From Thraustochytrium sp. TN22 (lineage: Eukaryota > Sar > Bigyra > Thraustochytrida > Thraustochytriidae): 64,000 bases of DNA. Shown here piece by piece: positions 7,867-45,960 of this stretch; the first letter of the stretch is position 1, and the number at the start of each line of letters is the position of its first letter. The position numbers and the translations under genes are program-made. The stretch is from contig JABLUY010000076.1 in the NCBI GenBank assembly GCA_013306675.1, forward strand, positions 51,614-115,613, in the 5' to 3' direction. The notes beneath the pieces were generated by a model that was not told the DNA's origin, did not search any database, and was given only the letters and a program-made list of their open reading frames with translations.

Positions 7867-9278
7867 GCAGCGATTACCTCAAGATCTCAGCTATGCCCAA
7901 AAGGAAACCGTCGTCACACCCCTTGCCTGACCTTGTGCTCCGATGAACTGGGCGTGGTCGCGGCGTGTGCGAGCGCGTGCCGGTGCTTGGCGCCTACTGG
8001 TTTGGACAGTGCGCCCGCTAGAATGTCGATTTGCACTGGCCCTCGAGGCAGTCCGAGTCACACGTGTGCATTCGCTTGCGACACCAGAACGCCTTGTGGC
8101 GCTAGCCCTGCCATACCCTTACATGGCGTTGGCACTCGGGGCCGTCGCCGAGCTCACAGAGGACCAGAACTCCGAGCTGGCCGAGGCCGGCAGATGGCAC
8201 CGAAAAGAACCAGCCCAGTGGAACGGCGTGCGCAACATAGTACACCGGGGCCAAAGTACATCAAAGACTCGAGCCCTCGTTTGCCACAAGCCTGCGTTTG
8301 CCACAAGTCTCGTTCCTCCCTGTCAGAAAAAGCCCTGTTTCCCCTCCCGGCAAAGGCATTCATTCGTCAATCGTCAGCACGGTTCATTCATCAATCGTCA
8401 CGACGGTCTACCCGTCCTAAACGAGCACAATGGCAACCGCGCTGCCAACGCTTGCAATCGCGGGCAGGGCATGAATTCAGCAAACGTGCCAGTTGGGCGC
8501 CAGCCACTCAATTCGCAGCACGCTTGGCTCAAGCTCTCCCTCTTTCCTAGGCCACTCACAGATCCTGCTCGGCGCGACTGAGCCTACCTAGATCACCCTC
8601 GTCAGCGCCTCCAAGGCAATAAACCAGCCTCCATTGCTTCTCATTCCGCGTTCTCTGGCATCAGTCATCCTGCAACGAAGCTGTCGCTGCAAGTGACCCC
8701 ACCTTAGGCCTCGGACTCGACTCGATATCCTTCGTCGCCTGTCTCCCTGCGGCTCGGTGACGAGACCCATTCCCCCTTGTTCTCCCTCGGCGTCCGGGCG
8801 CCGCAGCACAAGCTGCGCAACAGAGTCTCGCTGGACGACTTGCGCACGCCGCCTGCGTGCTGCGCCGTGCTGCGGATAACTAACTTAGTAAATCCCTGCC
8901 TCTGAGGCAGCTTCCAGGCGCCGCTAACCTCTTCCACAGCTCGAGTCCGAGTCCGAGATCGCGTCCGGCGAGCGCGGCGTTCCCGCAAAGCTGCGCAAAG
9001 TGCGCGAAGCCGCGCGCGTGCCACGGCCTGCGCTGCAGTGCAGTGCGCTGCGCCTGCGCCGCCACCCGCGACGACCCGGAGCGCCTGTCAGTGAGGGTGA
9101 TGATCCACGGCAGGCACGAGGCGGCAGACCCGGATCAGGCGAGCCGAGGCAGGCAGCGCGAGCGCGAGCGCGGCGGCGGGCGGCGGCGAGCGAGCGCGCG
9201 CGCGCGGGCAGGCGGCAGGCAGGCAGGCAGGCGCGAGGCGGCCGGCGGCGGCGCGAGGCGGCCGGCGGCGGCGCGGAG
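7867..9278. other. intergenic, 5' flank of the aromatic amino-acid fusion gene
   Basis: About 1.4 kb with no convincing gene. Open frames here (for example 7943-8581) lack any domain-like pattern. CATTCATTCGTCAATCGTCA-like motifs repeat near 8358-8400. From about 9140 the DNA becomes a purine-rich GC/GGC and GCAGGCAGG array leading into the ATG at 9279. Confidence 0.5.
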
Positions 9279-11272
9279 ATGGGGCCGCGCGTGGCGTACC
9301 AGGGCGAGCCGGGCGCGTACAGCGAGCAGGCGGCGCTGGAGCTGCTGGGCAGCTCGATCCAGACCAAGGGCCTGGCGTCGTTCGACGCGGTGTTCGAGGC
9401 GGTGTCGAACGGGGAGGTGGACTACGCGCTGGTGCCGATCGAGAACAGCCTGGGCGGGAGCATTCACGCGAACTATGACCTGCAGCTGCGGCATAAGTTC
9501 TTCACGGTGGCGGAGCACAACTTCCGTGTGCGGCACTCGCTCATGGTGCTGCCGGGCGTGAAGCTGGAGGACGTGCGGCGCGTGCTGAGCCACCCGCAGG
9601 CGCTGGCGCAGTGCGACGGCTTTCTGCGGCGCAACGGGCTGCAGGGCGAGGTCTCGTACGACACGGCGGGCAGCGCGAAGAAGATCGCGGAGCAGGGCCT
9701 GCGCGACTGCGCCGCGATCGCGTCGTCGCTGGCGGCGGAGCACTACGGGCTGGAGCTGCTGGACTCGGGCATCGAGGACGCGGAGCGCAACTTCACGCGC
9801 TTCCTGCTGCTGTCCAAGCGGTGGCTGCCGCTGCAGAGCTGGCCGGCGCGCAGCGAGCAGCGCGCGCCCACGCCGGAGCCCGGCGTGGCGCCGGCTGGCC
9901 CGCAGTCCGAGGGCAAGGGGTGGAAGACGTCCATGGTGTTCTCGCTGCTGGACTACACGGGCGTGCTGGTGCGGGCGCTGTCGGCCTTTAGCTTCCGCGA
10001 GGTGAGCATGACCAAGCTGGAGTCGCGCCCGGACAAGCTGCGGCTGCAGGGCCTGGAGATCGTGGCGGAGGGCAAGGCGGAGGAGCAGCTCATCCCGAGC
10101 GAGGACCGTGAGCTGCTGAGCCTGCTGCGGTCGGCGGCGGACGAGGCGGCGCTGGCGACGGCGCTCGACGCGTCGCCCGCGCGAGGCGCGGGCGACGGCG
10201 ACGCGAGCGAGGAGGATGGCGAGGACAAGTTCCAGTTCATCTTTTACGTGGATGTGCTGGGCTCGCTGGCGGACCGGCGCGTGGTGAACGCGATCCGGCA
10301 CCTGGCGGAGATGTCGCGGTACCTGCGCATCTTGGGCTGCTACCCGAAGGACGCCGTGCTGACGGACTTCGTGGCGGAGTCGGTGGGCGTGCCGACCGGA
10401 TCGGTCATGCGCATCCTGTCGCGCAGCACGTCGGGCCTTACCCGGGACGCGGCGGCGGCCGCCATCGCGGCGCAGGCGCGGCGGCTCAAGATTGGCATCG
10501 TCGGCTTTGGCAACTTTGGCCAGTTCCTGGCCAAGACCTTCGCGCGCACCCACGAGGTCTTTGCCTGCTCGCGCGGCGACTACACGGCCGAGGCCGAGGC
10601 GCTGGGCGTGCACTACTCGCGCAGCGTGGAGGAGATGTTCGCGGCGGCCAGCGGCCTGGACTGCTTGGTCATCTCGACGTCCATCCTCTCGTTTGAGAAG
10701 GTGGTGCGCGCCATCCCGCGCGACCTGCTGCACAACGTGCTGGTGGTGGATGTCCTCTCGGTCAAGATGCTGCCCAAGAACACGCTGCAGATCCTACTGC
10801 CCGCGGACGCTGACATCCTCTGCACGCACCCGATGTTCGGCCCGGAGTCGGGCAAGTTCTCCTGGCGCGGCCTCCCGTGCGTGTACGAGAAGGTGCGTGT
10901 GGGCGCGGGCGGCTTGGTGCAGGCGGACCGGCGGTGCGAGCTCTTCCTGGACATCTTCCGCAAGGCCGGCTGCCGCATGGTGGACATGTCGTGCGAGGTG
11001 CACGACGAGGCGGCCGCTGGCAGCCAGTTCGTGACGCACTTTACGGGCCGTATGCTTGCGCAGCTGCAGCTGCGGTCCACGCCCATCAACACCAAGGGCT
11101 TTGAGACGTTGCTGGCGCTCGTGGACAACACCTGCAAGGACTCCTTCGACCTCTTCTACGCGCTTTACAAATGCAACCCGAACTCGTCGCAGCAGCTCGA
11201 GGCGCTCGAGGCTGCCATGCATCGCATAACGGACCAGCTGCGCGAGCCGATGGAGGGTGGCATGCCCTCGGC

Positions 11273-11327
<55 letters not shown>

Positions 11328-12557
11328 ACGCGCCTCAGCGAGTTCGTCGGGCGCGTCCAGCCGTCCAAGACCTCGGAGACGCACGCGCTCGCGCTCGAGC
11401 TGCAGCGCCAGGGCCGCGACATTGTCACGACGCTCACGGTGGGCGAGCCCGACTTCGACCCGCCGCAGCCCGTGCTGGACGCCGTCATCGACGCCGCGCG
11501 CACCGGCAAGACGCGCTACACGCCCGTGGGCGGCGTCTTCGACCTCAAGGCTGCCATCTGCGAAGACTACAAGCGCCGCAAGGGCGTCGAGTGGACGCCG
11601 CAGAAGAACGTGCTCATCACGCACGGCGGCAAGCAGGCCCTCTTCTGCGCCATCATGGCGCTCTGCAATGCCGGCGACGAGGTCATCGTTCCGGCCCCCT
11701 ACTGGGTCTCGTACCCGGAGATCGTGCGCCTCAGCGGCGCCACTCCCATCATCGTCGACCGCCGCCCCGAGGACGACTACATCCTCACGCCCGAGGCGCT
11801 GCGCGCCGCGCTCTCGCCGCGCACTCGCATCTTTATCCTCTGCAACCCGTGCAACCCGTCCGGCTGCACGTACTCGGCCGACCAGCTCGAGGCCCTGGCC
11901 GCCGTCCTGCGCGAGCCCGAGTTCCAGCACGTCATTGTGCTCAGTGACGAGATCTATGAGCGCCTCACCTACGACGGCCTCGAGCACGTCTGTTTCGCCT
12001 CTCTCCCGGACATGTACGAGCGCACGCTCATCGTCAACGGCTTCTCCAAGGCCTACGCCATGACCGGCTTCCGCCTCGCCTACCTGGCCGGCGCCGACAC
12101 CGCGGTCGTCGACGCAGCGCTCAAGCTCCAGTCGCAGCTCAACTCCTGCCCCTGCTCCATCTCGCAGCACGCCGGCATCGCCGCGCTGCGCAGCGTCACG
12201 GATGACATGCTTGACCCGCTCTACGCGCAGCTGCAGGTCAAGCGCGATGCCATCGTCGCGGCGCTCAGCGCCATTCCCAACGTGCGTTGCCCGGTCCCGC
12301 GCGGCGCCTTTTATGCCTTCCCCGACGTGTCCTACTACCTAGGCAAGGGCTTCGTCTCGCGCAGTGGCCGCGTCATCAACACCGCTACCGACCTCTGCAG
12401 CTACCTCATCCAGGACCATGGTATCGCGCTCCCGCCCGGTGACGCCTTTGGTGCTCCGTACGGCGTGCGCTTCTCTTATGCCGCTTCGACCGAGGAGATT
12501 GACAAGGCTCTCACGCGCTTCCGCGCTGGTCTCGAAGAGCTTGCTGAGAGCAAGTAA
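9279..12557 (+). CDS. fusion: prephenate/arogenate dehydratase - ACT - arogenate dehydrogenase - aromatic aminotransferase
   Basis: 1092 residues. Residues 1-190 are the dehydratase (RVAYQGEPGAYSEQAA; ERNFTRFLLL with the TRF motif at about 170). Residues 216-355 form an ACT-type region (SLLDYTGVLVRALSAFSFRE, then FIFYVDVLGSL). Residues 402-660 match plant-type arogenate dehydrogenase (IGIVGFGNFGQFLAKTF, CTHPMFGPESGK, GSQFVTHFTGRML, NTKGFETLLALV). A Ser-Gly linker at about 663-685, encoded by a GGCTCC array, leads to a class I aminotransferase (VGEPDFDPP, CNPCNPSG, GFSKAYAMTGFRLAY with the PLP lysine at K924). Together the domains could transaminate prephenate to arogenate and convert it to both Phe and Tyr. 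The start at 9279 is chosen because the dehydratase fold begins immediately; the frame is open upstream to 9000. No clear plastid leader is seen if this start is right. Substrate preference (prephenate or arogenate) is inferred. Confidence 0.9.
11268..11327 (+). repeat. GGCTCC hexanucleotide array encoding a Ser-Gly linker
   Basis: Eight or more GGCTCC units inside the fusion gene, in frame, encode alternating Gly-Ser between the dehydrogenase and aminotransferase domains. Length change in steps of 6 bp would preserve the frame. Confidence 0.95.
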
Positions 12558-15019: not shown

Positions 15020-15444
15020 GTGTAGAACATGCCGTGTGATGGGACAGGATAGAGCGAGCTGTATATAGACTTCAATCATGCTGCGCGACGGGGCGCGGTA
15101 GTGAGCAAGAAGTAGTGTTGTAAGTCGGCCAGAGGTGTGGAGACATTCAAGGGACGGCGTGCGACTGGGCCCGAAGGCGGACGATCGATAAGAGCAACGC
15201 CTGGATGCCCGACCCGTCGGAAGCCTCATATGAAGCGCACCGGGCAAGCGGCAAAATCTCATCGAGACCTAGCTCGACCACTGTATACTTCGCACGCTGC
15301 CAAGAAAGCACCCAGTGCCTGACCGCGCAGGTCCACGAGCTGCTCCCCGACCAGCCGTAAAAAGTCATAGCAGCAGCCACTGCATAAGCCTCGCAACCAA
15401 CAGTCTGGCACCGCGCCGCCCTGCGGCGCCCAAGAGACTCGCAA

Positions 15445-15648
15445 CTCCGCTCGACCTGGCTTCCCAGCTCTCGGCTATTCCGCTCGACCTGGCTTTCCAG
15501 CTCTCGGCTACTCCGCTCGACCTGGCTTTTCCAGCTCTCGGTAACTTCGCTCGACCTGGCTTTCTTAGCTCTCGGCTACTCCGCTCGACCTGGCTTTCCA
15601 GCTCTCGGCTACTCCGCTCGACCTGGCTTTCCAGCTCTCGGCTACTAC
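15445..15648. repeat. 33-bp minisatellite, six units
   Basis: Units of the form TCCGCTCGACCTGGCTTTCC followed by AGCTCTCGGCTAC repeat six times with small changes (34 bp in unit 3). Because the unit is close to a multiple of three, both strands stay open through it, but there is no other sign of coding. 15649-16058 shows no gene. Confidence 0.9.
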
Positions 15649-16058: not shown

Positions 16059-17031
16059 TCAAGCCCAACCTCCGGCAAACGGCATGATCTGGCCCGTGAT
16101 GAAGTTGGCCTTGTCCGAAGCGAGGAAGGCAATCAGGTCCGCCGGCTCGTGCGGCTTGGCCAGGCGTCCGAGCGGAATCGGCTTGGTCATCTTGGCGTAG
16201 ATGGCCGGATCGTCGCGCAGGCGCTTGGGAAAGTACGTCTCGCTCTCCACAAAGTTCGGGCATACCGCGTTGACGCAAATATTGTCCGGTGCTACCTCCA
16301 TGGCAAGCGTGAGCGCCATGGCGTTGGTGGCGCCGCGCCCAATGGCGTATGACGCATAGTTTGGCAGCCCGCGCAGCGCCGTGGCGCTCGTGACGAAGAT
16401 GACCTTGCCAGACTTGCGCTCGCGCATCGCTGGAAGCAGCTTTGCTGTCAGCTCGAACGGGAACACCGTCAGCCCCTCCAGCGCGTGCACGAATTCCTCG
16501 CGCGGAATATCTGCGAACTTGCGCTTCACTGCAGGGTACGCAGTGTTGTTGATGAGCACGTCAACATCGCGCCCCACCGCCTCGGCCACTGCCTCCGGCT
16601 CGCTCTGCGCGATCAATTCCACATGCTCCGCGTCCAGACCCTCCATGAAGGCATCGCGCTGAGCGCTGTCCGCGAACTTGACATCCTGGCAAATCACCTT
16701 GCACCGTGGCAGGGTCTCCAGCAACGCAGCCGCCACCGGCCGTCCCTGTTGCGCGCAACCGCGCGATGTCACGTCAGTACTTGGTAAAGAAGGAGGAGCA
16801 AAGCAAGTGAGGGCGCTGGCGAGAGCAACAGCCAGGCAGTGGTCGCGGTCGTGAGGTCGAAGTTATGAGGTCGAAGTCATGAGAGGTCGAAGTCATGAGA
16901 GGTCGAAGTCATGAGGTCGAAGTCGCGGTCGTGAGGTCGAAGTCGCGGTCATAGTTTCGGTCATCGTCGCGGCGTTCACATTCACGTACCACGAACTCTG
17001 TCGCATGTGTCACCAGCACTCGCGTCGTCAT
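16059..17031 (-). CDS. halohydrin-dehalogenase-like short-chain dehydrogenase, two exons
   Basis: Proposed exon 1 is 17031-16990 (MTTRVLVTHATEFV), the intron is 16989-16746 (GTACGT...branch-like TACTGAC...CAACAG, 244 nt) and exon 2 is 16745-16059; the product has 242 residues. Joining creates T-HATE-F-V-G, the T-X4-F/Y-X-G motif that replaces the NAD-binding glycine motif in halohydrin dehalogenases. The catalytic set is S134 (in FVTSAT), Y147 and R151: Y-x3-R rather than the Y-x3-K of ordinary SDRs, with S-to-Y spacing of 13 as in HheC (S132/Y145/R149, 254 residues). QSEPEAVAEAV, DVDVLINN, RERKSGKVIFVTSA and LASDKANFITGQIM also follow HheC-type proteins. These enzymes reversibly close vicinal haloalcohols to epoxides without NAD(P). 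If unspliced, the frame lacks an ATG near its N-terminus, which supports the intron. An alternative is a cofactor-free SDR of another function. Confidence 0.72.
16746..16989 (-). other. predicted spliceosomal intron with internal repeats
   Basis: Bounded by GTACGT at 16989 and CAACAG at 16746 on the minus strand, phase 0. It contains a tandem array (about 16848-16955, plus strand GAGGTCGAAGTCATGA-type units, at least six copies) that would be unusual as coding sequence. Confidence 0.65.
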
Positions 17032-26458: not shown

Positions 26459-27576
26459 TGATGATGCCTCGCTGTCCGAGTCGAGGGGCCCACTGATGTA
26501 GCTAGCTTAGTAGAATGACGCCCTTTGATGATTGACTGCTGCGCGCAGCGTGAAATGACACCTTCTGATGTTTGACAGCTCCGCAACTGCGCCCAGCGTG
26601 ATCACTGGTCACGAATCTTCGGCCACGGCCACGGCCATGGCAGAAGGTCCACCCTTTGCGCTGTAGTGCAGCGCAGCACAGCACAGCCGAGCACAGCACA
26701 GCGCAGCACGGCGTCGGCGCCCGCCGCCTTGACTAGGCCTAGGCCCAGCCGCCGCGCGCCGAGCTCGGGTTTAACCAAGTCTCACTCACCCTGTTAGGAC
26801 TCAGCAGCAGCCTTCCGGCCCGGGCCCGGCTGGCTGGAAGACCGCAGCCGAAGATGTGGCTGTGCCGCTGTGCGAGCCTGTGCCACGCTGTGCACGAGCG
26901 CCACGCGCCCTTCTTCCGCCACGGCGCGCGCCACGCGCCGGCGTCGCCTCCACTGCCGGCCCTGCCGCCTGCCAGGGCCGCGGCGCTGCGACGGCCCTCG
27001 CTCGCTCGCTCGCTCGCTCGCTCGCTCGCTCGCTCGCTCTCGCGCTCGCCCTCGCGCTCGCCTCTCGCCTCTCGCGCGCGGGTCGCGCGCTCGGATCTGG
27101 GTTGTGCATTGCAGGCTCGCTCTCGCTGCAGAAGGGGAAGAAGGCGGAGAAGTAGGAGTAGAAGTAGAAGAAGAAGAAGAAGAAGGTGAGGTGCACGTCG
27201 GCTCGGCCCGCCTGCTTGCAGTGCTTTTTCGAATTTCAAACCCAAATCCGAACGCGCCGGCGCCCGCTCGCGAGCAGGAGGCGGCGGCGGCGGCGGCGCG
27301 CGGCCCTGCGTGCGTGCGTGCGTGCGTGCGTGCGGACGAGCGCCGGCAGGCCGGCCGGCCGGCCCCCGGGGGCCATTCCCGCGGCGGCGGCATTCACATC
27401 CCATCCCATCCCATCCGACGCGCCCCGGCGGCGCTCGGCCCTCCCTCCCTGCCTCAGGCTCGCCGCCCCTCCGCGCGGGCGGTCAGCGGCGCTGCGCTCC
27501 GGCCACCCCCGTCCCCCCTCGGCCGCGCGGCGACGGGCAGGCCAGGCAGGCAGGCGGCGAGGCGGCGGAGGCGGGC
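26459..27576. other. intergenic region, 5' flank of the kinase-phosphatase gene
   Basis: No gene seen. Holds GCACAGCACAGC-type repeats (26660-26712), a CTCG array of about ten units (26998-27040), a GAAGAA tract (27160-27186), TGCG array (27308-27334) and the motif TTTTTCGAATTTCAAACCC at 27226. Confidence 0.6.
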
Positions 27577-30500
27577 ATGAACAGGCTACGGCGCGTGCGC
27601 AGGGCGGGGCTCAAGCGCGAGAAGAGGTCGCCGCGCGCGTCGGAGGACAGCGCGACGTCCGGGCGGCTGGCGCTGGGCGCGGGCGCGGCGGCGGCGGAGG
27701 AGCGCGCGTCGAAGCGCGTGATGCGGACGTCGGGCGACGAGCGCGAAGAGCGCGACGGCGGGAGCGAGAGCGGGAGCGGGAGCGGGTCCTCGGTGGAGGA
27801 GCTCTCGGAGAGCGGCGGCGGCGAGGGGAGCAGCGACGAGGACGAGGAGCTGGTGGACCTGGACGACGATGAGGAGTTCTTCGGGCAGGGCGAGAGCGAC
27901 GGCGCGGCAGCGCTGGAGCGCGAGCGCGCCGAGATCGTGCGCAGCAACTTCGAGGTGCTGTGCGCGGTGCCCTTTTTCGCGCGCTTCCCCGAGGAGCACC
28001 AGCGGCAGCTCTTTGATGAGCTGCGCGTGGAGCACTACAAGGACGGCGACCGCATCGTGACGCAGGGCGAGATGGGCGACCGCATGTACATCATCGTGAG
28101 CGGCGAGGCCGTGGTGTGGCGCGAGGACGTTGGCGAGATCACCCATCTGTACACCCACGACTACTTCGGCGAGCAGGCGCTACTGTACAGCCAAGTGCGC
28201 AATTCCAACGTGTCGGCGGTGGGCGCCACCGTCGTCATGTACCTGTCCATAGAGTGCTTCGAGAAGTACCCCAACATTCGCGTCTTCATGATCGTGCAGA
28301 AGATCCCGCTTCTCAGCAAGCTGAGGCCCGACATGCAGCAGAAGATCGTGGCGCGCCTGCGGCCGATCTCGTACGAGCAGGGCGAGTTCGTGGTGACACA
28401 GGGCGAGGTGGGCGACGCCTTCTACATGATCGCCAAGGGCTCCGCCGAGGTCGTCGAGAACGGCGAGGTCACCACGCACCTGTACGAAGGGCACACCTTT
28501 GGCCAGATGGCGCTCATGAGCGGCGCGCCGCGGCTGGCCAGCATCCGCGCGTCGGAGTCGCTCGTCTGCATGGAGCTCAAGGCCAAGGACTTCCAGGAGC
28601 TCATGAAGGAGGACTCGGAGTTCAGCCAGATCCTGGAGACCGACGACAAGGTCATCCGCCGCCGTCGCTCCAAGCGCGACGCGCACCGTAACAAGCCGCG
28701 CAACTCCTCCATGGACTCAGGCGCGTCGCGCCGCTACTCGACCGAGAGCGCCTCCGTCTCGCTCGGCCACACGCTCTCTGCCGGCAAGATGGTGGACGAG
28801 GCGCGCGTTGTCACCACGCGCCGCAAGGGCGGCCACCGCGTCATCAACGGCTTCGTGCTGCGCCGCGAGATCGGCCGCGGCACCTTTGGCCGCGTCCGCC
28901 TCTGCGTGCAGGAGCAGACCAACGAGCAGTTCGCCATCAAGATCATCGACAAGTCCAAAATCAAGGACAACGTGTCAGTGCACACGCCGGGCCTCGCCGA
29001 GATGCGCCAAGAGGTCGCCATCATGAAGCGCCTGCGTCACCCCAACATCGTCAACCTCGTCGCCGTCATCGACGACCCGGCCGACGACCACCTGTACATT
29101 GTCACCGAGTTCTGCGAGAACGGCGCGCTCATGGAGGGCCTTGACGACAACGAGCCGCTCCCCGAGGCCACCGCGCGCGCCTACTTCCGCGACCTCCTGC
29201 TCGGCCTGCACTACCTGCACGCGCAGGGCGTCATTCACCGCGACATCAAGCCGGCCAACCTGCTCATCACCAAGGACGACGACGTCAAGATCGCCGACTT
29301 TGGCGCCGCGCGCATGATCACCGGTGGCACCAAGTGGATCTCCGGCGTGACTGGCACGCCAGCCTTCATGGCACCCGAGCTCCTGGTCGAGGACAACGAG
29401 GAGTACGACGGCCCGGCCGTCGATCTCTGGTCCTGCGGCGCCACGCTCTTCATGATGGTGACCGGCGCGCCGCCCTGGATGTCCGACGACGAGATCAAGC
29501 TTGCCAAAAAGGTCAAGAACGACGAGCTCCACTTTCCCTCCGACTGGAACCAGCGCAACTACTCGCCGCACCTCAAGAACCTCATTCAGCGCCTGCTCTC
29601 CAAGGACCCGCTCAAGCGCCCCGGCCTGCCCGAGGTCATGAACCACGAGTGGGTCACCGAGGAGGGCTCCGAGATGCTCATGCCCATCGCCGAGATGTAC
29701 CTCACCGAGGAGCTCATGCGCGACGCCGCGTCCGGCCGCCCCTCCAAGACCCTCGCCAGCTTCGACACCGGCGCGCCCACCAAGGAGGAGGAGGACGCTG
29801 CCATTGACCAGCTTGAGATGCGCGACAGTTCGATCGGTTTCGCCTCCAACTTCAGCCCGGCCTCCAGCATGTCCATCCCGCGCACTGCCTCCGGCCGCCG
29901 AGAAGAGGAAGACCTCGACGACCTCCTCAAGCCGGACCATGTTCTTGTTGACGAGGACCTCAATTCTGACGATGAGAGCGAGTACTCGCAGCACACGAAC
30001 CGATACGACATTGGCCGCATGCACGCGGCGCAACCGCCCAAGCACGCCACCGCCGCCGACGCCGCCGCTGCCGCAGCGGCTGCCGCGGCCTCCTCCTCCG
30101 TCTCGGGCTCCATCGACGAGGAGGACGACGCCGACGTATCCGCGCTTCCCGACGACCCGGACGAGTTGCCGCCCGCGCACCCGATCCGCGCCGCCGAGGT
30201 TCCCGAGGAGATCAAGGGCGGCAAGAAGGCCTCCTGGATCAACCTGCGCTACGCCTCCGCCAAGGCGCAGAACAACCGCGCGCGTATGGAGGACTACGTC
30301 TCCATCTGCAGCAAGCTCTCGCCGCCCGGCTCGAGCTCCTGGTTCCTCTCCAGCTCCGCCTCCAAGGGACCCTCCTGCTTCTTCGCCGCCGTCTACGACG
30401 GCCACGGCGGCACGCGCGTCTCCGAGCTTCTCAAGGAGTCCCTGCACCGCACCATCGCGGCGCAGTCCTCGTTTGGCACCGACATTGACGAGGCCATCAC

Positions 30501-31239
30501 CGCCGGCTGCCTCCAGTTCGACCGAATCATGCTGCACAAGGCAGCCACCTCCATCATGGAGCAGCGCCTCAAGATCTCCAACGGCGAGGCGCGTCAGTCT
30601 CTCCTGCGCACCAAGGGCGACCGCTCCACCACGCCCTCCGCCGTCGACGAGTACCGCAAGACCGGCTCCACCGCAGTCATGGCCTTTGTCGGCCAGGACG
30701 ACAATGTCGCCTCGCCGCAACCGCGCCAGCTCACCGTTGCCTGGGTCGGCGACAGCCGCGCGGTCCTCTCGCGCAACGGCACCGCAGTTCCGCTCTCCGA
30801 GGACCACAAGGCCATCCGCGAGGACGAAAAGGCGCGCATCCGCGCGGCCGGCGGCACCGTCAACCGAAAGGGCCAGGTCGATGGCGCCCTCGCTGTCTCA
30901 CGCGCCTTCGGCGACATCATGCACAAGGGTCTCGACATCGAGCGCCTCGCTGCCATGAAGCCCAGCGGCGACTCACCCGAGGACGACGAACTCCTCGCCA
31001 GCGGCATTGTCATTGCCAAGCCTGAGATCACCAGCGACGCACTCCTTCCTTCGGACGACTTTCTCATTCTCGCTTCCGACGGCCTCTGGGATGTCATCAC
31101 CAACCAGGAGGCGGTCAACATCGTCTCCCACTTCCTCGCTACCAAGAATGACCTGCAGGGGGCTGCGGACGAGCTTGTCCGTCGCGCTCTCCCGACGTCC
31201 GTCGACAATATTTCCGTCGTGCTGCTGTCGTTCCACTGA
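27577..31239 (+). CDS. cyclic-nucleotide-binding x2 - CaMKK-like kinase - PP2C phosphatase fusion
   Basis: 1220 residues, one exon. Two cNMP-binding domains occupy about 120-355: the first has YFGEQALLYSQVRNSNV, with Glu and Arg of the phosphate cassette; the second has TFGQMALMSGAPRLASI, with Gln in place of that Glu. The kinase (about 424-705) has IGRGTFGRVRLC, FAIKII, HRDIKPANLL, ADFGAA and GTPAFMAPELL. The VHTPGLAEMRQEVAIMKRLRHPNIVNLV and HEWVTEEG segments resemble CaMKK/SNF1-kinase-kinase types rather than PKA/PKG. PP2C (about 890-1218) has RMEDYVSI, VYDGHGGTRVSELL, VAWVGDSRAVLSRNG, DGALAVSRAFGD and LASDGLWDVITNQEAV, so its metal-binding Asp residues are present. Kinase and phosphatase both look active. 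A cyclic-nucleotide-controlled protein with opposed activities is inferred. Gene start is the ATG at 27577; the open frame upstream is low complexity. Confidence 0.92.
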   Translation: MNRLRRVRRAGLKREKRSPRASEDSATSGRLALGAGAAAAEERASKRVMRTSGDEREERDGGSESGSGSGSSVEELSESGGGEGSSDEDEELVDLDDDEEFFGQGESDGAAALERERAEIVRSNFEVLCAVPFFARFPEEHQRQLFDELRVEHYKDGDRIVTQGEMGDRMYIIVSGEAVVWREDVGEITHLYTHDYFGEQALLYSQVRNSNVSAVGATVVMYLSIECFEKYPNIRVFMIVQKIPLLSKLRPDMQQKIVARLRPISYEQGEFVVTQGEVGDAFYMIAKGSAEVVENGEVTTHLYEGHTFGQMALMSGAPRLASIRASESLVCMELKAKDFQELMKEDSEFSQILETDDKVIRRRRSKRDAHRNKPRNSSMDSGASRRYSTESASVSLGHTLSAGKMVDEARVVTTRRKGGHRVINGFVLRREIGRGTFGRVRLCVQEQTNEQFAIKIIDKSKIKDNVSVHTPGLAEMRQEVAIMKRLRHPNIVNLVAVIDDPADDHLYIVTEFCENGALMEGLDDNEPLPEATARAYFRDLLLGLHYLHAQGVIHRDIKPANLLITKDDDVKIADFGAARMITGGTKWISGVTGTPAFMAPELLVEDNEEYDGPAVDLWSCGATLFMMVTGAPPWMSDDEIKLAKKVKNDELHFPSDWNQRNYSPHLKNLIQRLLSKDPLKRPGLPEVMNHEWVTEEGSEMLMPIAEMYLTEELMRDAASGRPSKTLASFDTGAPTKEEEDAAIDQLEMRDSSIGFASNFSPASSMSIPRTASGRREEEDLDDLLKPDHVLVDEDLNSDDESEYSQHTNRYDIGRMHAAQPPKHATAADAAAAAAAAAASSSVSGSIDEEDDADVSALPDDPDELPPAHPIRAAEVPEEIKGGKKASWINLRYASAKAQNNRARMEDYVSICSKLSPPGSSSWFLSSSASKGPSCFFAAVYDGHGGTRVSELLKESLHRTIAAQSSFGTDIDEAITAGCLQFDRIMLHKAATSIMEQRLKISNGEARQSLLRTKGDRSTTPSAVDEYRKTGSTAVMAFVGQDDNVASPQPRQLTVAWVGDSRAVLSRNGTAVPLSEDHKAIREDEKARIRAAGGTVNRKGQVDGALAVSRAFGDIMHKGLDIERLAAMKPSGDSPEDDELLASGIVIAKPEITSDALLPSDDFLILASDGLWDVITNQEAVNIVSHFLATKNDLQGAADELVRRALPTSVDNISVVLLSFH

Positions 31240-31581: not shown

Positions 31582-34500
31582 TCAGAGCCAACCCTCGGCA
31601 GACCGCTGCAGAAAGTCGCCATCCATGAGGGAACATTCAAACGCCAGCAAGAGCTTACGGCGCATGATGTCCTTGGACGAATACCGTGGGAGCGACATCT
31701 GCCAAAAGCACGTCTGGCTCGTGGGCAGAAAGTCGTCCGGATGCTCGGCCGCCTTGCCGGACGGCGCGGTGATCTTGAAAGAACTCTGCATGTCCACGGT
31801 CGAGGCCGGCATGCGCGAGCGCGCCGACGAGAAGCGCAAGAACGCCGTGCGCTCCTCGTTCGACATTTCCTCCAGGTTCTCCCAGAACCACTGCACGTGC
31901 TGGTCCGACGGCTGCACGCCCTCGTATTCAGTGCACGCCTTGAGCTGAGACACGTCCAGCTCCTTGCGGCCGCACAGGAGCGTCTCCAGCTCGCCCTCTG
32001 TGAAGAGCGCAAAGATCTCCACCGGAACCACGGCGCTCAAGCCAGACCGAAAGGCCTCCAGCTGCTCGCGAGCCTCCGCGAGCCGCACCGCCTGCGCGCG
32101 CTCAATGTAGGTGCTTGCATTCTCGAACGTGAGCGCCGTCCGGGCGCCGTCCTTGATCACCGGAACAACCGTGCCGTCCGACAGGGAAACCTCCATGAAG
32201 CGCTCCACGCCGAGCGCGTCCGCCAGGGTGGCGGCCTCGTCGGTCGGCCCGGCCGCCCCAAGCTTGGCGATGGTGCGTAGCGTGTTCGTGAACACCTTGT
32301 CAATCTCGTCCAGTGCCGCCGGGCCCACCTCGAGGTTCGCCAGCCGGCGCCAGTAAGACGACGGCAGGTCCAGGCCCATCTGCAGGCCGTGCCGCGCCGC
32401 CATGCCCACCAGCTTGCCCAGGAACACGAAGCGCTTCAGGCTCTTCTCCGACGGGCTAAAGCAGTACTTGTCGCGGCCCAGGTCACCGCTGTTCGTGGCG
32501 CGGTTCGGGCTTGGCACGAGCAGAGGCAGCAGGCACGCGTTGCGCGCGTCCGCCCACTCCGTGTCATTCTGCAGCTCGTCCACCGACTGCTCGAACACCG
32601 CGCGGTACGGCCCGCCGTAGTCCTTGACGCCCTCGCCCAAGAACTTCACCTTGAACGCGCGACGCTGCCCGCCATGGCCCTTGCCCACGTACGCGCGCCG
32701 CAGGCTGTGCGGCGACCACTTGGCTACCTCCGCGTACAGCTGGCCAAAGACCGACGCCTGCAGCCGCTTGCTCGCGTTCGAGATGGTCACCAGCTTGTTG
32801 GGCGCCGCACGAATGCGGTTTACGTTCACATTGCGAATCTGCTGCGGGTCGTCGTACTCGTCCGAAGCCAGCGGCGTCGGCGTCGTCGTCGCCGCCAGCA
32901 CCTGGTCGAAGAAGGACTTCTTGGTCCACGTGAAGAGCAGCTGCCGCAGCGACGAGAGCCGCAGCCCGAGCGGCCCGCTAAGGTCCACCAGCGGCAGCAC
33001 GCGCTTCACCATGCAGTTCCACAGCCGCAGCAGCGCGAGCCGCGCCAGAACCGGACCCGGCGCCCGCGCAGGCAGCACGCCGCTCACCTCCCAGGGCTCC
33101 ACGTTCATCACGTCCGTGCCCAGCACGTTGCACCGCTCGTTCACCAGCTGCACCAGCGTGAAGTCGTCCTGCGTGCGCCAGCCCTCCAGCGCGGCGCGGA
33201 AGTCGTCCAGGTCCGGCATCGCCGGCATGCCCTCGGCGTGACGGCTCGCCACGGCCTCGGGATCCTCCTCCGCTGGCGCCTCCTGCAGCACCTCCAGCAG
33301 CGGGAGCTCCTCCGCGTCCCAGTACCACGCGTGTGAGGCGCCTTCCTCCAGGCCGTCGTGCCCGCCGCCCGATTGCGACTCCACGCGATACCAGATGCGC
33401 CCGCGGTGCACACCAAGCACGGCGGCCTCCTCTGAGGCCTCCAGGTCGCGACCGCAGCTCTGCAAGACGCGCACACGGTCGCCTGCGCGCAGACCACGCC
33501 GCCCGCTCTCCAGCTGCACGTGCGCGCCGCTCACGGCCTCGCACGCGGCCGCGGAGATGTCCACCTCTACAACCTGGCCGCGCGCGCGGCACGGGTACCG
33601 CCGCAGCCGCTCCGTGGTCCACCGCTGATAGTGCGAATGCGCACGCCGCACAAGGTCCTCCGGTAGGCTGGCCGCCGCGCCGTCCTGCGCGGCCCAGGTA
33701 CCCTCAAGCACCGCAGCCACAGTGCGCAGGTCGCGCAGGAGGGCGTCCGGGCTCCGCCGCGGCACCGCAAAGTGCTTGTGCGAGAGCCGCACCTTATTGC
33801 CCCGCGACCGACGCAGCCCAATGACCGGGAAGAGCGTCAGCGGCGCGGCGCGATCGCCGCGCGCATCCGCCTTGCCCTCGATTTGCGACGCCGAGAACGC
33901 GATGCCCAGGTCCTTCATCGTATGCTGCCCGTACTTGATGCCGTCCATGAAAAAGGACACCACGCCATGGTCCATGTCCAGGCACACACCCACCGTATCG
34001 CCTGCACCATAGAATTCGCCGTAGATCTGCTCGTTGCCCTGCGGCTGATTCGCGTGCGTCTCCAGGGTCGCGCGGAAGTTCACGTAACCGTACGCGGCCG
34101 GCGACCGGTCCCAACGCCGCAAGAATGCCATCTGCGTCCCGGCGGGGTACACACCGGGCGGACGCTCCGAGACGCCCACGAACACCGATCCGTATTCGTG
34201 CGTTGCCTGCTCCACCTTCACCTCCCAGTAGTGTACGCCGCCGCTGAAGCCCACTGTGCCCATGGCAAGGCCGCGCGACTCCATGTCCATCGAGCTCAGT
34301 GTCACCAGGGTGTGCTCGTCGTCCAGATTCATCGACGACCCCTTCACATCCGGATCCAATCGGTACAGTTCGTGCGCCACCAGCTCCACGTCCCCGCGCA
34401 CCACGAGCGGCTCGCGCGCGCCCGACGACGCCCTGCGCACGACCGCGTCCTCGCTCTGCGCCGCCGAGGCGTCCGCACCGCTCTCCTTGGCTACCACGCG

Positions 34501-37500
34501 CAGCGTCAGCGACTCGTCCTCCACGGACTTGCACAGCTCAGACAGCACGCAGCATGACGCGAACCGCTCGTCGCCGCGCAGGACCTCCAACTCCGGCGCT
34601 TCCGGCACCTCGGCCCCACTTCCGGCCGATCCGGCGACTGCGGCTGTGGCGGCGGCGGCGGCGGTGAGGACCTCAAAGACGGTCCACAGGCGCGTTGCCT
34701 CAATCGTTGCGGTCAGCTCGCCCTCCAGATGCACGGCCAGCGGCTTGGCATACGCCTCATCCAGCGACGCCATCACATCCTCGTGCATGTCGGCGGCCGG
34801 CGGCGTCTGACTCGACGAGGCCGTCGACCGACGTCGCGAGGAAGGCGCGTGGAGCTGCATGAAGCGCTCCCGGGCACTGCCGCCCTCCGACGGGCGCGAC
34901 GACGCTTGCCGGCCCAGCGCCTCCTGCATCGTGCGCCGTCCGAGTTGGCGCACGTCACGCGAGGCGCTCGTAGGCCTCGCGCCAGACGAGGACGACGAGC
35001 CTGCCAACCCGCCCGTCGCACCCATGAGCGGCCGCAGGAGCGCCTCCAAGAGCTCCGAATCGCCCAGCTCCTCGAGTGCGGAGATGTCCACGGCCAGCGC
35101 CTGCTCTTGCTCGCCACGTTGAATGAAGACGCGCTGCATGCCGGCCGCTGCACTCGCCGCGGACGACCGCGAGCGCGAGCCGCCCTCACGCTCGCTGGAC
35201 GAGGGCGCCTTGTCGCGCAGCTCCGCCTCCAGTGCGGTCAGCTCCTGCAGGTCCGCGCGTCGCGCGTCCACATCGTTCACCGACGGTGGCACGAGGATCT
35301 CTGGGATCGTCACCTCGAAGCTGCCCGTAAGCCGGCCTGTTCCTGGATCCTCACGCAGGTTGTACTCGGTGCCGGGCCGCCATGCCGGCGACCCGAAGCG
35401 CGCCTCCCAGCCACGGGTCGGGGTACCCTGCAGCAGATCTGTCTCCACAAGCTTGAGGCCGCCGTCCGCCGTGCTTGTCACGCTCACGCGCACCTCGGCA
35501 CGGAACACGGGCAGGCGCAGCGTCCCGCTCGAGCGGTCACGCGAGAGCCACAGCTGCGCGCCGACCCGGAGCCGCGCGCCAAGCTCTGCTTTCTTCTCCG
35601 CGATGGCGCGCGACGAGTGCACCACATCAAAGGCGCGCCGTTTGCGGCTCGCCTCCTGTACGCGCTCCTCCTCGGCCTGCTGCATTTCCTCCAGGTCGAG
35701 CCGCTTCACCTTGCCGTTTTCCTCCACGCGCAGCACCACCACACGCCAGTCGCCCTTGACTGCATCGTATGGCTGGTATCGGCGCAGCGAGGCGCGGGAA
35801 GACGCATCATCGTCGTCATCGTCACCGTCGCCATCGTCCTCGTCCTCGTCCTCGTCCTCGTCGTCTTCGTCCTCGTCCTCCTCGTCCTCCTCTGCCCCCG
35901 CCGCAACGGCAGCAGAGGCCTCGTTCTCTTGGTCCGCGAAGTGCGTCGCGATGACCGTGGCCAGAGACGCCGGCGAGGCGGCTGTCACGGACGGCGAGCT
36001 GGGTGAAGTGTCACCAGCGCCGCCCTGAGCGGCAGGCGGGGGCGTGGACACAGTCGAGACGTCACCGGCCTGCGCAGCCGCGGGAGGCGTGGAAACGGTA
36101 GAGTCGCCACCGGTCTGAGCGGCCGCGGGAGGCGTGGACACGGTCGAGGCTCCACCGGCCTCATCCGTAACCGGGCTTGCCTCCTCGCCGGCCTCCGCCG
36201 CACTCGAGCCCGACGACGGCCGCCGCCACCGCACAACGATACAGGATTCATCCATGCCGACCACGACACCCACAGCGCCGTAGTTCGTGCCATGGGTCTC
36301 CCCGACCTCGTCACGGCCAACCCCGCTGCCGCCACCGGGGCGCGCCCCAGCCCCAGCCGCAGCCGCAGTCACACCTGGAGCCTCGCCGTCCTCTCTTTCG
36401 TCGTCCTCGTCGCTGTCCGCATCCCAGGCAGGCCCGCGCACCACAAGGTCGCCGATCTGAATGTTGCGCATGATGAGCGCGTCCGGGCCCGGGTCGGCCG
36501 CGCCCGGCGTGGCGGCCGCCGGGTCCGCAGCCGCACCCCCCTGCGACCCGGCGCGGGAGTCCTGAACCTTGAGATTCGCCGGCAGCGTGATGGGCAGCTG
36601 CGTCAGCGTCCCGGCGAAGGAATCCGGCGCGGCGCCCACGAGGTCGTCCGCATCGCGCATGGCCTGGCTCGCCGCGTCCTCCACAGTAGGTCGGGGCGTG
36701 TCGACGGAGTCGAGCATGCAAAACTCCGAGAAAGACTGAACCAGGTGGCCCTGCACCGAGGCCGTCACGCCGCCCCGCTCCAGATACCGCCCGCACAGCA
36801 CGCGGATGCGGTCCAACGGCGCAAGGCGGAGGAGGTCCGCGCGTGCCTCGGACGGCACCTTGGACAGAAGCTTGGTGAGCATCGTGACCGCGATCCGCTT
36901 CAGCGAGACACCCGGCGACCGCAGCGCATGCGCCCACGCCGCGAAGAGCCTGCGCACCACATGCGAGTCTGCAGGCCGCGCCGAGAGGAGAAAGTCAGAG
37001 TACCACATGGCCAGCTGCACGGATGGGAGCTCCGCAATGGTGGCATCGTCGAAGCGAAGGTCCCCGACCGCGTGCTCCACTTCGTCGCCGCCGCCCTCCT
37101 GGAGACGGGCGCTGTACACGCGTGCCGCCTCGGCAAGAAGGGCCGGGAGGTCGAAGCGCTTCGCCTCGGCGAAGACACGCGCTAGCACCGCGCCGCCCGT
37201 CCACTGAACAGCGCCGAAGGCCCGCATGCTGGCGCGCGCCAAACTGGCCGCCACTGCATCCACCAGTGCGTTGACCATGTTGGGACTTTTGCAGAACGCT
37301 GTGAGCGCTGAGCTGAAGGACGACAGGATGGCGTCCGGCTCCGCGAGCAGGTCGCCCTGCGTAAAGGAGATGACGTCGCTCGCCACTAACTTGAGCAGGC
37401 GCACAAGGGTGTCGGCGCCCGCGCGGCCCGTCGCCAGGGGCACGATGGCCTCGCCCTGCACGAGCAGGTGCATGACAGCGGAACGCGCGTAGAGCGCGGC

Positions 37501-40500
37501 GAGCGCGCGGCTCGTCACGAGCAGTGAAGCCATGACGGCGTGCAGCGGCGCGGCCGCCAGGCGGTCGAGCGCCGCGCGCAGGTCCGTCACGACCTCATTG
37601 ACCGGGGCGGCAGAGATCGCATCGAGGTCCGCCACTTGGGTGAGGTCCTTCTCGAGCTGGCCAAGCGGGCCGAGAGCTTCGGGCACGTCGCTCGGCGGCG
37701 CGTCCACGGTCCCTCGCGAGCGTCTCGACGAAGAAGATTGGTGGCGGGACGAGGACGCGTGCATCCGGTAGGCGTGGCGCGCGGCCGAAGAAGACGAACC
37801 GCCGCTCGGCCCGCCCGGGCCCGCCCACAGGTTGCTGGCAAGCCCCGAGGACGACTCGGACGCGAAGTACCGCTCCTTGGGCACACGCGAGGAGTACGAA
37901 GGGACTTCCTCCTCGAGGCAGTCCTCGACGAGGTGGCGGTGGAAGTGACGAGCCACATCGGCATCCACATGTTCCGGCTGCTCGAACCATAAGTAGTGGC
38001 GAGCGTTGCACTCGCGGTCGTTGATGGACGCCGCTACAGGCCGTGCAAGACCCACCAGGTGCGGGGGCGGCTTGAACCGGAAGGGCCGCTGGCCAAAATT
38101 GAATTGCATGCGCTCCGTGCGGTTGAGTGAGGCGGCAGGCGTCAGGCCACGCAAAAAGTCGCGCCCCTCCTGCAGGCCGCGCACCATGCAGCCCATGCCG
38201 TTCTCGTAGTCGCCGTCCAGGCCGAACCACATCTCGCCCTTTTCGAGGTCGAGCGCGGCGCAGACTACCTGGTTCTTCGCCCACGCGCGGCCCCAAACCT
38301 GGCTTTTGGCGTGCCAGGCAAACTGTCGATAACCGTCGAACGACCACGACCGGCCGTCGTCGCCGACGCCATCGCCCTCACCGGCATTGCCCGTGAACGA
38401 GGCATCAGCCCAGCCGATCTGCATGCAGTTGTCCGTGAGCAGCGTCACCTCGTAGTACCAGATGCCCTTGTGCAGGAGGACGTCGCGTGCGCAGACGCTC
38501 GGGAACCCGTTCGCGCTCGACTTGACGCCCACCGTCAGGTCGTCCTGGATGTCCACCACGTCCAGGCCGCTCGTGGCCGTTAGCCCGCCCACGCCAGGCG
38601 GCAAGCCTGTGACAGGCGGTGCCTCCTCCGGCTTGGTGGCCTCCGACGGCGCTGGCTCCTGCGCCGCCTGCTCAACAGGCTCCTGCGTGGAGGCAGTGCC
38701 GCCCTCGACATTCGTTTGCTGCTCCTGGTCTTGTGACGCTGATTGTTGTTCTTGTTGCTGCTGCTGCTGCTCATCCTCCTGCTGCAGCGTGTCGCCATTG
38801 CTGAGGATCCACGTGAGCGCGTCGTCGAAGTTTTCGCCAACAGCATCCACGGCGCGGGCGCAGTAGCGCTCGGGAAACCCCATCTCCACCAGCTTATCGA
38901 TAATGACAGCGCGGCGCGACGAGGCCACAACGGCGGCGGCCGCCGCAGCGGCAGACCCGGAGGGGGCATTGGACGAGCTGGCCGCCGTGGCCGCCGCCTG
39001 CGACGAGGGCGCAGCACGGCGCCGCTGGCGAGCAGCGGCCTCCACGAGAATATCGATGTCACTGTTGTGCTCCACGCAAAAGTCGATGGCAGCATCGAGG
39101 TCATTGTTGCAGCGCTCCAGCGCAATCTGACAAACTTCCTTGGGAAAGCCCATGCCGAGCTCCATCATGTGACGCAGCTCGGGCGAGGCCTCCTCCTCGT
39201 CGTCGGAAATGGCGGAGGCGGCTGAGGATCGGTCTGCGTCCTCAGCCCTGGGCTTTTCCGGCTGCGCGGCCTGCGCCATTTGCTCCTCGAGGATCTCGTC
39301 GAAGCGCATCAGCGCGTGCCGCCACCAGGACTCGAGCCGGCCGAGGTCGCGCAAGCCGGACGTTGGCGTGTGCGCGGCAGCCGCCTCCACAAGGCCGCGC
39401 AGGAGCTCCTCGGTCACCTCAACGTCCTGATCGCCACCGCGGGCTGTGATCTTGTCGGCGCCAAGCGCCACCACACTCTTGAAGAGAGAGGTACGCAGCA
39501 TGGCCTCTCGCACAGCGAGATCTGCGCGTTGGTAGTTCTCGGCGGCCTTGGCGGCCTGCGCGGCGGCCTCCTCGGCGTCGTCGTCCATGGGATCCTCTCT
39601 GGTCTCCTCGGGACCCGCCGGGGTTGGCTCCACACCTCCCGCCTCCGCCTCATTCTCGCTCGTGTTCGCCGCTCCCGCTCCCGCTCCCATTTCCGCCGTT
39701 GTCCCCTCGCGCAGGGCCTCGAGCTCTTCGCAAAGCGCCTCACGGTAGGCTGCGAGGAGTGCCGGCGAGAGATCAGCTGCGAGATCGACCTCCGCGGCCG
39801 GGATGAGCAAGTCGGTGTCGACGCTGGCCGACATGAGGCGAATCGTCTCCTTGCCCTCGGCACTGGCACCGCCGCCGCTCCCGCCGCTTTGTGGGCCGGG
39901 CGCATTGGCCTGGGTGGCAGGCGCGCTGGCGCTGGCAGTATTCGAGGCCGTCTCAGCAGCGGGCGGTTGCTGCTTCTCCTGCAGGAGGACCTGCGCGCTC
40001 TCGAGGCGCGGGCCTTTAAGCGTGGCCAAAATCCCGACGCGCTGCGAGAGCGCCTTCATCTCGTCGTAGTGTGCCTCGTCCACACGGCTGAGCCAGGTGG
40101 GCGAAAACTGCACCTTGCCGCAGATGCGGAGCGGATCGAACATGCCGCCCAGCACGCAGACCGCCGCCCAGCGCGAGGGCAACTCTGTCCCGCGCAGCAT
40201 GGACAGCAGCATCTCCTGGGCCAGCGTCGACCAGGGCGTCTCGCGCTGGTTGAGCAAAAGGCGCAGCAGCGCGACGGCATCAGACGCGCGGCCAAGGCGC
40301 GTCTCGTAGGATGCGTGGCCAGTGGCCAGGGGCGCAGCCTCCGAGGCTTGGTCGTCTGCGGGGCTCTGGTCGGCCCCGCCCTCCTGGTCCTCCTGCTGTG
40401 CATGCTGCTGCCCTGCCGGCGCGCGCGCCTGCGCCGGGTAAGCCGCTTCGACGAGGCAGACGAGGCGGCCTAGTACGTCAACGTTGGTCTGGAGCTCCCG

Positions 40501-43500
40501 CACAAGGGGTGCCGCCCGGATGGTCGGCAGCAGGCGCGCCAGCAGGCGCAGCGTGCGGTGCTGGATACGGGGCGACGGCGATGCGGCGGCGCCCAGGAGC
40601 GTGTCGACGCGATCCGCAGTGGAGAGGAAAGGCGTGCTGGAGCGGATGCCGTTCACCGTGATGGTGAAGAGGAGCATGATGACCTGGTAGGCATACTCTT
40701 CCTCAGCACTGGACTCAAGCGCGGTCTCAAGCTCGGTGAAGAGCATGTCAAAGACCGAGTAGCCGAGCGTCTCGACCCCAACCGGCTTGGTGTGCGTCTT
40801 GAGGTTGTTGAGTAGCGAGGCGGTCGGACTGCGGATGCTGAAGCTCGTGGTGTCGTCATCCGTGTAGAGACCCCGCGAGGAGACGATCTGTGCAGCGAGC
40901 AGGTGCACGACAGTTAGCGTGGCCTTCATGATGCGCTGGTGCGCCTCGACGCGCGCGGTGGGTGTTTCAGGCCCGTCCTCCAGCGCGGCGATGGCGGCGC
41001 GCGCAGATGTGAGCACCTGGTGGAAGATGCGGAAGATTTTGACGCGCGAAAGAAACTCGTGGTCGTGCGGCGAAAGGCGCAGGTTCCATGCCTGAATAAT
41101 GCCAAGCTGCAGCGCGATATTTCCACCCATGGCGGCACGTTCCAGGTCACTGGCGAGCGACTCAAACAAATGGTCGAAGGACGCGCGCACTGTGTGCTGA
41201 AGACGCTTGCCACAGCCGAGCGTGTCGGCCAGGTAGTGCGCGGCAGCATCGCCGGCCGCGTCGGGTTGTGGCGGCGTGGCGAGGTTGTTGGAGGCGCTCC
41301 GCGCATGTCGCGCGGAGCTGGGTGAGACTGTGGTGTCGTCATCGTCTCCACCGAGGTTCACAAAGTCCAGCGGCGATATTTCTGGCCCATGCACGGGCGG
41401 CGCCGCAGCATCGCCCTGATGGTGTTGGTGTTGGTGCTGGTGCTGGTGCTGCGCCTTGCCGGCAGAGGGAACCATGCGCGTGGCGCGTGAGAGCGCAACC
41501 TCGCGCGGACCGGCGCCTTTCTCCATAAAGGAACCCTCGAGGATGCAGAGCGGCGTCTTGCCGTCCTGCAGCGCCGGGCCAAGCCACTCGAGAACGCCCT
41601 CGCGTGCCGAGGGCGTCAGAGTCTCGATGGCGATACCGAAGACGTGCTCCGCGGAACGGGCCTTGGAGCGCGCCTTGGCGAAGAAGAGTGAGAACAGATT
41701 GAGGCCGGCGGAGCGCTGCGTGGCGCGCCAGACGGCATCGAGCATGCGTTCCTGGAGGCGCGAGACCGCAAAGTTACCCTTGAGAAAGAAGATGACGGCC
41801 TCGAGGGCTTGCGGATGGGTGCGCGAGCCAGCGGACCCGCGCGTGACAAAGTGCGCCACGCGCTTCCACTGATCGAGCACCTCGAGCAGCGAGACGGACT
41901 GATCCGCGGCCATGGCGATCTGCTGGTTGACGAAGCCGGCGGTGATGAGGCTGGCGACCGAGATCTGACGACCGGCATCGCGATTCGCCTCGACGCGGAG
42001 CGCCGTGGAGGCCTGCGAAGAAGCCGCGACGGCGGCCGCCGAGGTGGGCGTCGGCGCGCCGGGCCCCATGGCGAGGCCGCCCAGACTGTCCGAGGATAGC
42101 TTGCGCTGCAGACCGACCGAATAGTCGAGGAAGGGCACGGTGCCCGGGCGTACGGAGAGCAGGAAGCGCGCTTTGGCAACAATCTTCTCGGCCAGCACGC
42201 CGTAGGTGGACCCACTCTGCTGCTTGGAGCGAATTGCCCACTCGACAATGCGCTGCGCCGCGCGCCAGACGCCCGTCAGCATGCGCGAGGGTTGCACGCC
42301 GTCCACCTCCTTGTCGCGCGACTCAGATTCCTGCAGCCACGCGAAGAGGAGGCGCGCCTCCTGCAGAACGCCGGTGTGCATGAGCATGGAGGCTACGGTG
42401 GCAAGGCGTGCCGCGCGCATGGCGGCGCCGCCCACGCTGATGAAGGCGCTCTTGCCTGCAAAGCGCAGCATCCACTGATCGAAGCGGTTGAGCGGCTGCT
42501 GCGCGGTCTGCTGCTCCTGCTGCTCCGGTGCCGGTGGACTGCTGGCAAATGCGGCCTTGTTGGCACTGCCGCTGCTGCTGTCCTCTTCGCGCGAGGGCGC
42601 CGGCGCCGGCGCTGTGTCCTCGCTGGCGACCAGAAACATTTGCAAAAAGGCGATGTCGGTCTCGTCGTCGAGGCCCCACGTTGCCGCGTACGTGGCCGTG
42701 AGGCTGGCCGCCGAGTCGAGCGAACCTGTGCGGGGCGATGTGGGCGGTGACAGCGAGGCTGCCGACGAGTCCGAGGACGAGAGTGCCGAGGAGGAACCGT
42801 CGCGCAACTCCAAACCAGACAGAGCGAGCACTAGGGAGCCCTCATCGAGTTGCACGCTGCGCTCTCGCAGAAAGCTGTTGAGGAAGGAAATCGAGAAGCC
42901 GCCCTCCAGCAGGCGCGACTTGAGCAGCTTGGCGATTTCCTTTTCGGCAGCGTCGGAAGCCAGGGCCAAGCCCTCGCCGCCCGACTGCGCCCGGCTGCCC
43001 TCGGTCCCGCCGTCGGCATTGCCGCGATTCTCGCCGCTGCGCTCAGCCCTGGGCCCGCCCTCCGCATTGCCCTCTTGTTCTTCCTCTTCGTCGTCGTCTT
43101 CTTCGTCTTCTTCTCCTTCGTCGTCGTCGTCGTCATCATCATCCGGGGACCCAAGCTGACCCGACGTATGCATGTCCAGGAGCGTTTCGCTAGGGCGCCC
43201 GCGGAGTACGATGGCGGCGGCCTTGCCAAGCAGCAGACCGAGCAGCTGCTGCCAGAGCGCCACATCCGAGGTCGCCGACGGCGAAGCCTCGGCGCGGAAG
43301 GCCGTGACGAGGCCGGCCGCTGTCGGCGTGCGCTCATCAGCGTAGGTCCCATAAAGGACGCGGTGGCCCGGCATGAGGCGCAGAGTGAGGGAGCAGGAGG
43401 AGTCGGACTCGGGCCAGCGCTCGACAAAGTCGACGCGGCGGCCCGCCCGAAAGCCGGACACCTGCACATTGGGCACCTTGTCGCCGGAGCTCGCGACGGT

Positions 43501-45912: not shown

Positions 45913-45960
<48 letters not shown>

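Follow-up and report, generated by a model that had tools for sequence, protein, structure and literature searches.

The window analysed here, a stretch of 64,000 nucleotides (~66% GC) from contig JABLUY010000076.1 of Thraustochytrium sp. TN22, probably carries a nuclear gene with two exons, from a marine, thraustochytrid-like eukaryote, that encodes a halohydrin dehalogenase (HHDH), a predicted cofactor-free member of the short-chain dehydrogenase/reductase (SDR) superfamily. HHDHs, described from bacteria, convert halogenated alcohols to epoxides with no need of NAD(P); the novelty is a eukaryotic member of this known family, with one clade-specific change. Its assignment to a eukaryotic branch of this family is supported by both HHDH signature motifs, three sequence searches of the PDB and a 56-row tree, and the family call of an initial annotation, made from the letters alone, is thereby upheld. 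The gene is not unique to the TN22 genome (37.9 Mb in 453 contigs), and relatives occur in other eukaryotes, at least in Hondaea and in one MMETSP transcriptome, with 76% identity to the Hondaea protein and 71% to the MMETSP protein. The gene and its key sites are as follows:

16990..17031, minus strand: coding part of exon 1, 14 residues (MTTRVLVTHATEFV), with an N-terminus that matches P0001 (Hondaea fermentalgiana) and P0002 (MMETSP)
16746..16989, minus strand: predicted intron of 244 nt, GTACGT (from 16989) to CAACAG (ending at 16746), phase 0, placed by sequence and homology
16841..16952, no strand given: tandem repeats with units of ~14-20 nt, occupying much of the intron
16059..16745, minus strand: exon 2, residues 15-242 and the stop codon
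16743..17010, minus strand: motif 1, T8-x4-F13-x-G15 (anion pocket), interrupted by the intron, with T8-V14 in exon 1 (17010-16990) and G15 in exon 2 (16745-16743)
16335..16388, minus strand: motif 2, S134-x12-Y147-x3-R151 (catalytic triad)
16542..16544, minus strand: codon of Thr82, which replaces the Asp of HheC position 80 and is common to the eukaryotic clade

Gene structure and predicted splice junction

The product of 242 amino acids is read from the minus-strand join 17031..16990 + 16745..16059, in which the first in-frame ATG (17031) opens an exon of 14 codons, and exon 2 contributes 228 codons followed by a TGA at 16061-16059. The coordinates, frame, donor, acceptor, phase 0 and product length first proposed for this gene were all reproduced on the sequence, as was the appearance of THATEFVG once the intron is removed. 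GC content is 0.57 in the intron and 0.63 in exon 2. The presence of motif 1 depends on the predicted splice, which is backed by the N-termini of the two eukaryotic relatives and by a test of alternative joins. Residues 5-15 (VLVTHATEFVG) correspond to VLVTHATEFLG in the Hondaea protein P0001 and to VLITHATGFVG in P0002, a protein from an MMETSP transcript. In the join test, each of 12 ATGs up to 1.2 kb upstream was combined with 46 GT donors and with 6 AGs close to the junction, with exon 1 limited to at most 300 nt, the intron to at least 50 nt and the frame required to be open into exon 2. Only one of the 80 distinct open peptides obtained contained T-x4-[FY]-x-G, and it was the join already annotated; the other 79 candidate first exons were rejected, as they lack motif 1. 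The frame of exon 2 is also open upstream, giving an intron-retaining version of 267 codons that likewise lacks motif 1. These comparisons support the predicted 16990/16745 junction.

Signature motifs and key residues

Residues 8-15 (THATEFVG) agree with T-x4-F/Y-x-G, the N-terminal motif of HHDHs (PMC4989007 section 5), which replaces the glycine-rich dinucleotide motif, and S134, Y147 and R151 form the catalytic motif S-x12-Y-x3-R, with the S/Y/R spacing of 13 and 4 that had been noted at the outset. The two classical-SDR patterns are absent, since His9 and Phe13 occupy the first two Gly sites of T-G-x3-G/A-x-G and Y147 is followed by R151 rather than by the Lys of Y-x3-K. In an earlier survey, a search with the two HHDH motifs yielded 37 new HHDH genes, of which a selected 19 were confirmed to be active (PMC4989007 section 5).

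Both motifs are present in 110 of 120 homologs (the best 120 of 1840 matches) and in 75 of 80 bacterial genome loci, of which 79 contain the S-Y-R triad and none contains S-x12-Y-x3-K; in these counts, W was accepted as an aromatic residue and the first 40 or 45 residues were inspected. All five checked SDR paralogs of the TN22 genome (L002-L006) have Y-x3-K. Across 251 aligned rows (170 database proteins, the 80 loci and the query, with some database proteins and loci being identical), Arg occupies the Lys site in 251/251 rows, a count that is not independent because the loci were partly fetched with a pattern containing that Arg.

The catalytic residues S132/Y145/R149 of HheC from Agrobacterium radiobacter (1pwx) align to S134/Y147/R151, the two-position offset originally proposed, and its T7/F12/G14, P175 and N176 align to T8/F13/G15, P177 and N178. 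In contrast to HheC, the TN22 protein has no C-terminal extension with W249, and D80 of HheC is T82 here. At this D80 site, Thr is found in all five eukaryotic-clade rows that reach it, whereas the 245 other rows of the alignment (of genomic or metagenomic origin, most of them with no organism given) have Asp in 243 cases and His in 2. On the aligned sequences, the Asp-to-Thr change is thus a new trait specific to the eukaryotic clade. The structure 6a41 (listed in the PDB as 'dehalogenase' and 'Dehalogenation enzyme'), for which no paper was found in the literature searched, also carries Asp at the site where the eukaryotic clade has Thr.

Placement within the HHDH family

Searches of the PDB consistently placed the protein closer to known HHDHs than it is to classical SDRs, as did the tree, although HheB and HheG-type chains score among the SDRs. 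With the single protein as query, the first 12 rows were HHDH chains (171-91 bits; next row 86), led by 6a41 (171 bits) and followed by 8xxb, 7b73, HheA and HheC chains, with HheB (81 bits), 7wkq (75) and 8h8y (73) interspersed among SDRs. A profile of 58 homologs, hand-picked from the best 120 of 1840 matches, again returned 12 HHDH chains first (325-167 bits: 6a41 325, HheC 237, HheA 211, 7b73 172, 8xxb 167), ahead of the best ketoacyl reductase (145), while 7wkq (138), HheB (138) and HheG-type chains (134-128) lay among SDRs. A profile of six eukaryotic-clade rows also gave 12 HHDH chains first (205-124 bits), followed by the DHRS4 chain 3o4r (107). Two of the first 12 rows, 7b73 and 8xxb, both labelled SDR in the PDB table, are what we take to be D-type HHDHs; the lower-ranking 8h8y is presumably of the HheG type.

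In the 56-row tree, which was hand-picked to include 22 of the 120 proteins and 20 of the 80 loci and has no reference row for types E, F and G, FabG and the five SDR paralogs of TN22 are split from all HHDH references and relatives (100/99), and six eukaryotic-clade rows group at 100/100. The protein lies on the HHDH side of this branch and not inside the NAD-dependent SDRs, the position that had been named as evidence against the family call. Over the whole tree, 21 of the 52 inner branches are open. HheA and HheC are not united with 6a41 in a single clade, and long branches converge close to the base. HheB (4zd6), 7b73 and 8xxb share both motifs and fall on the same side relative to SDRs, but they are distant (stem 1.78) and show a gap of ~25 residues after strand 2 in the alignment.

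The structure predicted for the Hondaea orthologue (pLDDT 95.1 on average) has an SDR-type Rossmann fold, which does not discriminate between the two families; when Foldseek candidates were aligned to it with VIA-align, the eight best rows were 6a41 and HheC, the latter with 32% identity to the model. In addition, the relative P0280 (45% identity; among the best 120 of 6838 matches) has an nr name that begins with 'halohydrin dehalo'.

The eukaryotic clade and its probable bacterial origin

Outside the eukaryotic clade, identity does not exceed 54% over at least 98% of the length, or 57% over 68% (among the best 120 of 1840 matches). The closest bacterial relatives are named 'SDR family oxidoreductase' (Sneathiella, Minwuiales and Rhodospirillales, with P0280 included) and are ~44-54% identical across almost their entire length, with the same motifs; their frames are continuous and lack the intron, and Asp prevails at their D80 site (the 243/245 rows given above). 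The eukaryotic clade falls within this group. In a 52-row tree rooted on 6a41, five eukaryotic-clade rows group at 100/100 amid bacterial and metagenomic rows, with P0003, P0004 and P0075 counted as eukaryotic throughout solely by their place in the clade. For this tree, rows at least 72% alike were thinned (37 of 156 kept), and ten proteins judged short, long or odd, including P0075, were removed by hand. On a long stem branch (1.38), the clade stands beside P0019, which is the same protein as a Minwuiaceae locus, and beside three other rows, with a support of 81/88 from a bootstrap that had not converged; the named bacterial rows around it are mostly Alphaproteobacteria.

A single eukaryotic clade among bacterial rows is most simply read as one transfer from bacteria. 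A single gain from a bacterial donor, perhaps one of the Alphaproteobacteria, is thus the probable origin of the gene, in line with the transfer suggested from the sequence alone, with moderate support for the exact place. Elsewhere in the genome collection that was searched, the family is bacterial. A viral origin was rejected, as none of the 10 pattern matches in viral contigs encodes a relative. No second HHDH was seen in the TN22 genome, where the other 29 of 30 matches do not exceed 36% identity. The listings of the literature searched, which does not cover most subscription journals, showed no paper about a eukaryotic HHDH.

Genomic neighbourhood

The surrounding genes are eukaryotic and code for ERCC1, a UAA-type transporter, WD40 and cNMP-kinase-PP2C proteins. 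The best match of ERCC1 is Hondaea (85%), followed by an MMETSP protein (79%; among the best 120 of 312 matches). Hondaea is a thraustochytrid genus according to a title cited in PMC12258536, and as both genes searched match it best, the marine-type eukaryote first proposed as the host was right in kind. The contig of the Hondaea ERCC1 record measures 346,940 bases, and the contig of the Hondaea HHDH record is given with the same length. This equal figure indicates that the ERCC1-HHDH linkage is probably common to both organisms and thus conserved.

Domains typical of the N-terminus of epoxide hydrolases occur at three loci of the genome, all on other contigs, and a PAP2 scan for haloperoxidases gave 12 unspecific matches. 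Around the 80 bacterial loci, of which several have short flanks, 737 open frames were clustered, the largest cluster covering 13 loci.

Several other features of the window were recorded. A tandem array of 33-nt units (~six copies) lies downstream of the HHDH gene at 15444-15646. On the plus strand, a frame of 1209 codons (8928-12554) joins prephenate dehydratase, a prephenate-dehydrogenase-like part and a class I/II aminotransferase in an apparent aromatic amino acid fusion, and a frame of 1349 codons (27190-31236) combines cNMP-binding domains, a protein kinase and PP2C in a single protein. On the minus strand, an open frame of 5175 codons (31585-47109) contains a SPRY domain in its scanned part (40000-47109), and a tRNA match at 48405-48519, not listed by ARAGORN in bacterial mode, spans 115 nt for a model of 71 positions and is thus probably an intron-bearing tRNA.

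Predicted mechanism and alternative explanations

In HHDHs, a Ser holds the substrate hydroxyl, a Tyr acts as the base and an Arg lowers the pKa of the Tyr, and the nucleophile pocket occupies the position of the nicotinamide site (PMC4989007 section 4). All residues required by this mechanism are present in the TN22 protein, suggesting an enzyme active as a dehalogenase. Splicing would join the strand of the anion pocket to the catalytic part; Ser134 would then hold the hydroxyl of a vicinal haloalcohol, and Tyr147, acidified by Arg151, would remove its proton. The resulting alkoxide could displace the halide seated in a pocket formed by Thr8-Phe13-Gly15, Pro177 and the 177-187 loop, releasing an epoxide and a halide. 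The reverse reaction, epoxide opening with halide, azide, cyanide or nitrite, would also be expected. A likely role would be the removal of natural marine haloalcohols or epoxides, and the products of the three epoxide-hydrolase-domain loci could process the epoxide further. Only two HHDH genes were known in an operon with an epoxide hydrolase at the time of an earlier review, which left other functions open (PMC4989007 section 3).

An NAD(P)-dependent classical SDR, with Arg in place of Lys by chance, would fit the database names (DHRS4, 3-oxoacyl-ACP reductase) and the fold common to both families; Pfam yields adh_short_C2 and adh_short alone, and 196 NCBIfam families match, the 25 shown all bearing dehydrogenase, reductase or oxidoreductase names and none reaching its cut-off. 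However, this is quite improbable given the lack of TGxxxGxG, with His9 and Phe13 at its first two Gly sites, the Arg found at the Lys site in every aligned row, the HHDH chains heading all three PDB searches and the separation from FabG and the SDR paralogs in the 56-row tree. It is somewhat less improbable, but still unlikely, that an HHDH-derived enzyme has shifted to another reaction in eukaryotes, such as that of an epoxide-opening lyase or a binding protein. The fixed Thr82 would mark such a shift, and the long stem of the clade and the physiological roles of HHDHs left open in PMC4989007 (section 3) are compatible with it, whereas the retention of all catalytic and motif 1 residues argues against it.

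Bacterial contamination or a mis-joined contig, which the otherwise bacterial distribution of the family might suggest, was rejected and is negligibly probable: the gene stands singly among eukaryotic neighbours, its N-terminus requires an intron, its identity to the two eukaryotic proteins exceeds that to any near full-length sequence outside the clade among the best 120 of 1840 matches, and its linkage with ERCC1 probably recurs in Hondaea.

A more specific form of the HHDH assignment can be put forward tentatively, as a possibility well short of an even chance. The gene may have been acquired a single time by thraustochytrids and may encode a eukaryotic SDR lyase that needs no cofactor and acts on native halohydrins or epoxides (e.g., marine haloperoxidase products of polyunsaturated lipids or seaweed compounds), with a pocket retuned by the fixed Asp-to-Thr change and a halide pocket that requires splicing of the first intron.

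Implications

HHDHs were first obtained from bacteria that had been enriched on epihalohydrins or haloalcohols (PMC4989007 section 5). An intron-bearing copy in marine-type eukaryotes, probably with the same linkage in Hondaea, suggests a natural role independent of pollution. The Hondaea record carries an SDR (oxidoreductase) name, and a correction of the 'SDR family member 4' names is suggested. Collectively, a eukaryotic branch with a distinctive residue is added to a family used in biocatalysis, and the natural role of HHDHs becomes testable in a thraustochytrid.
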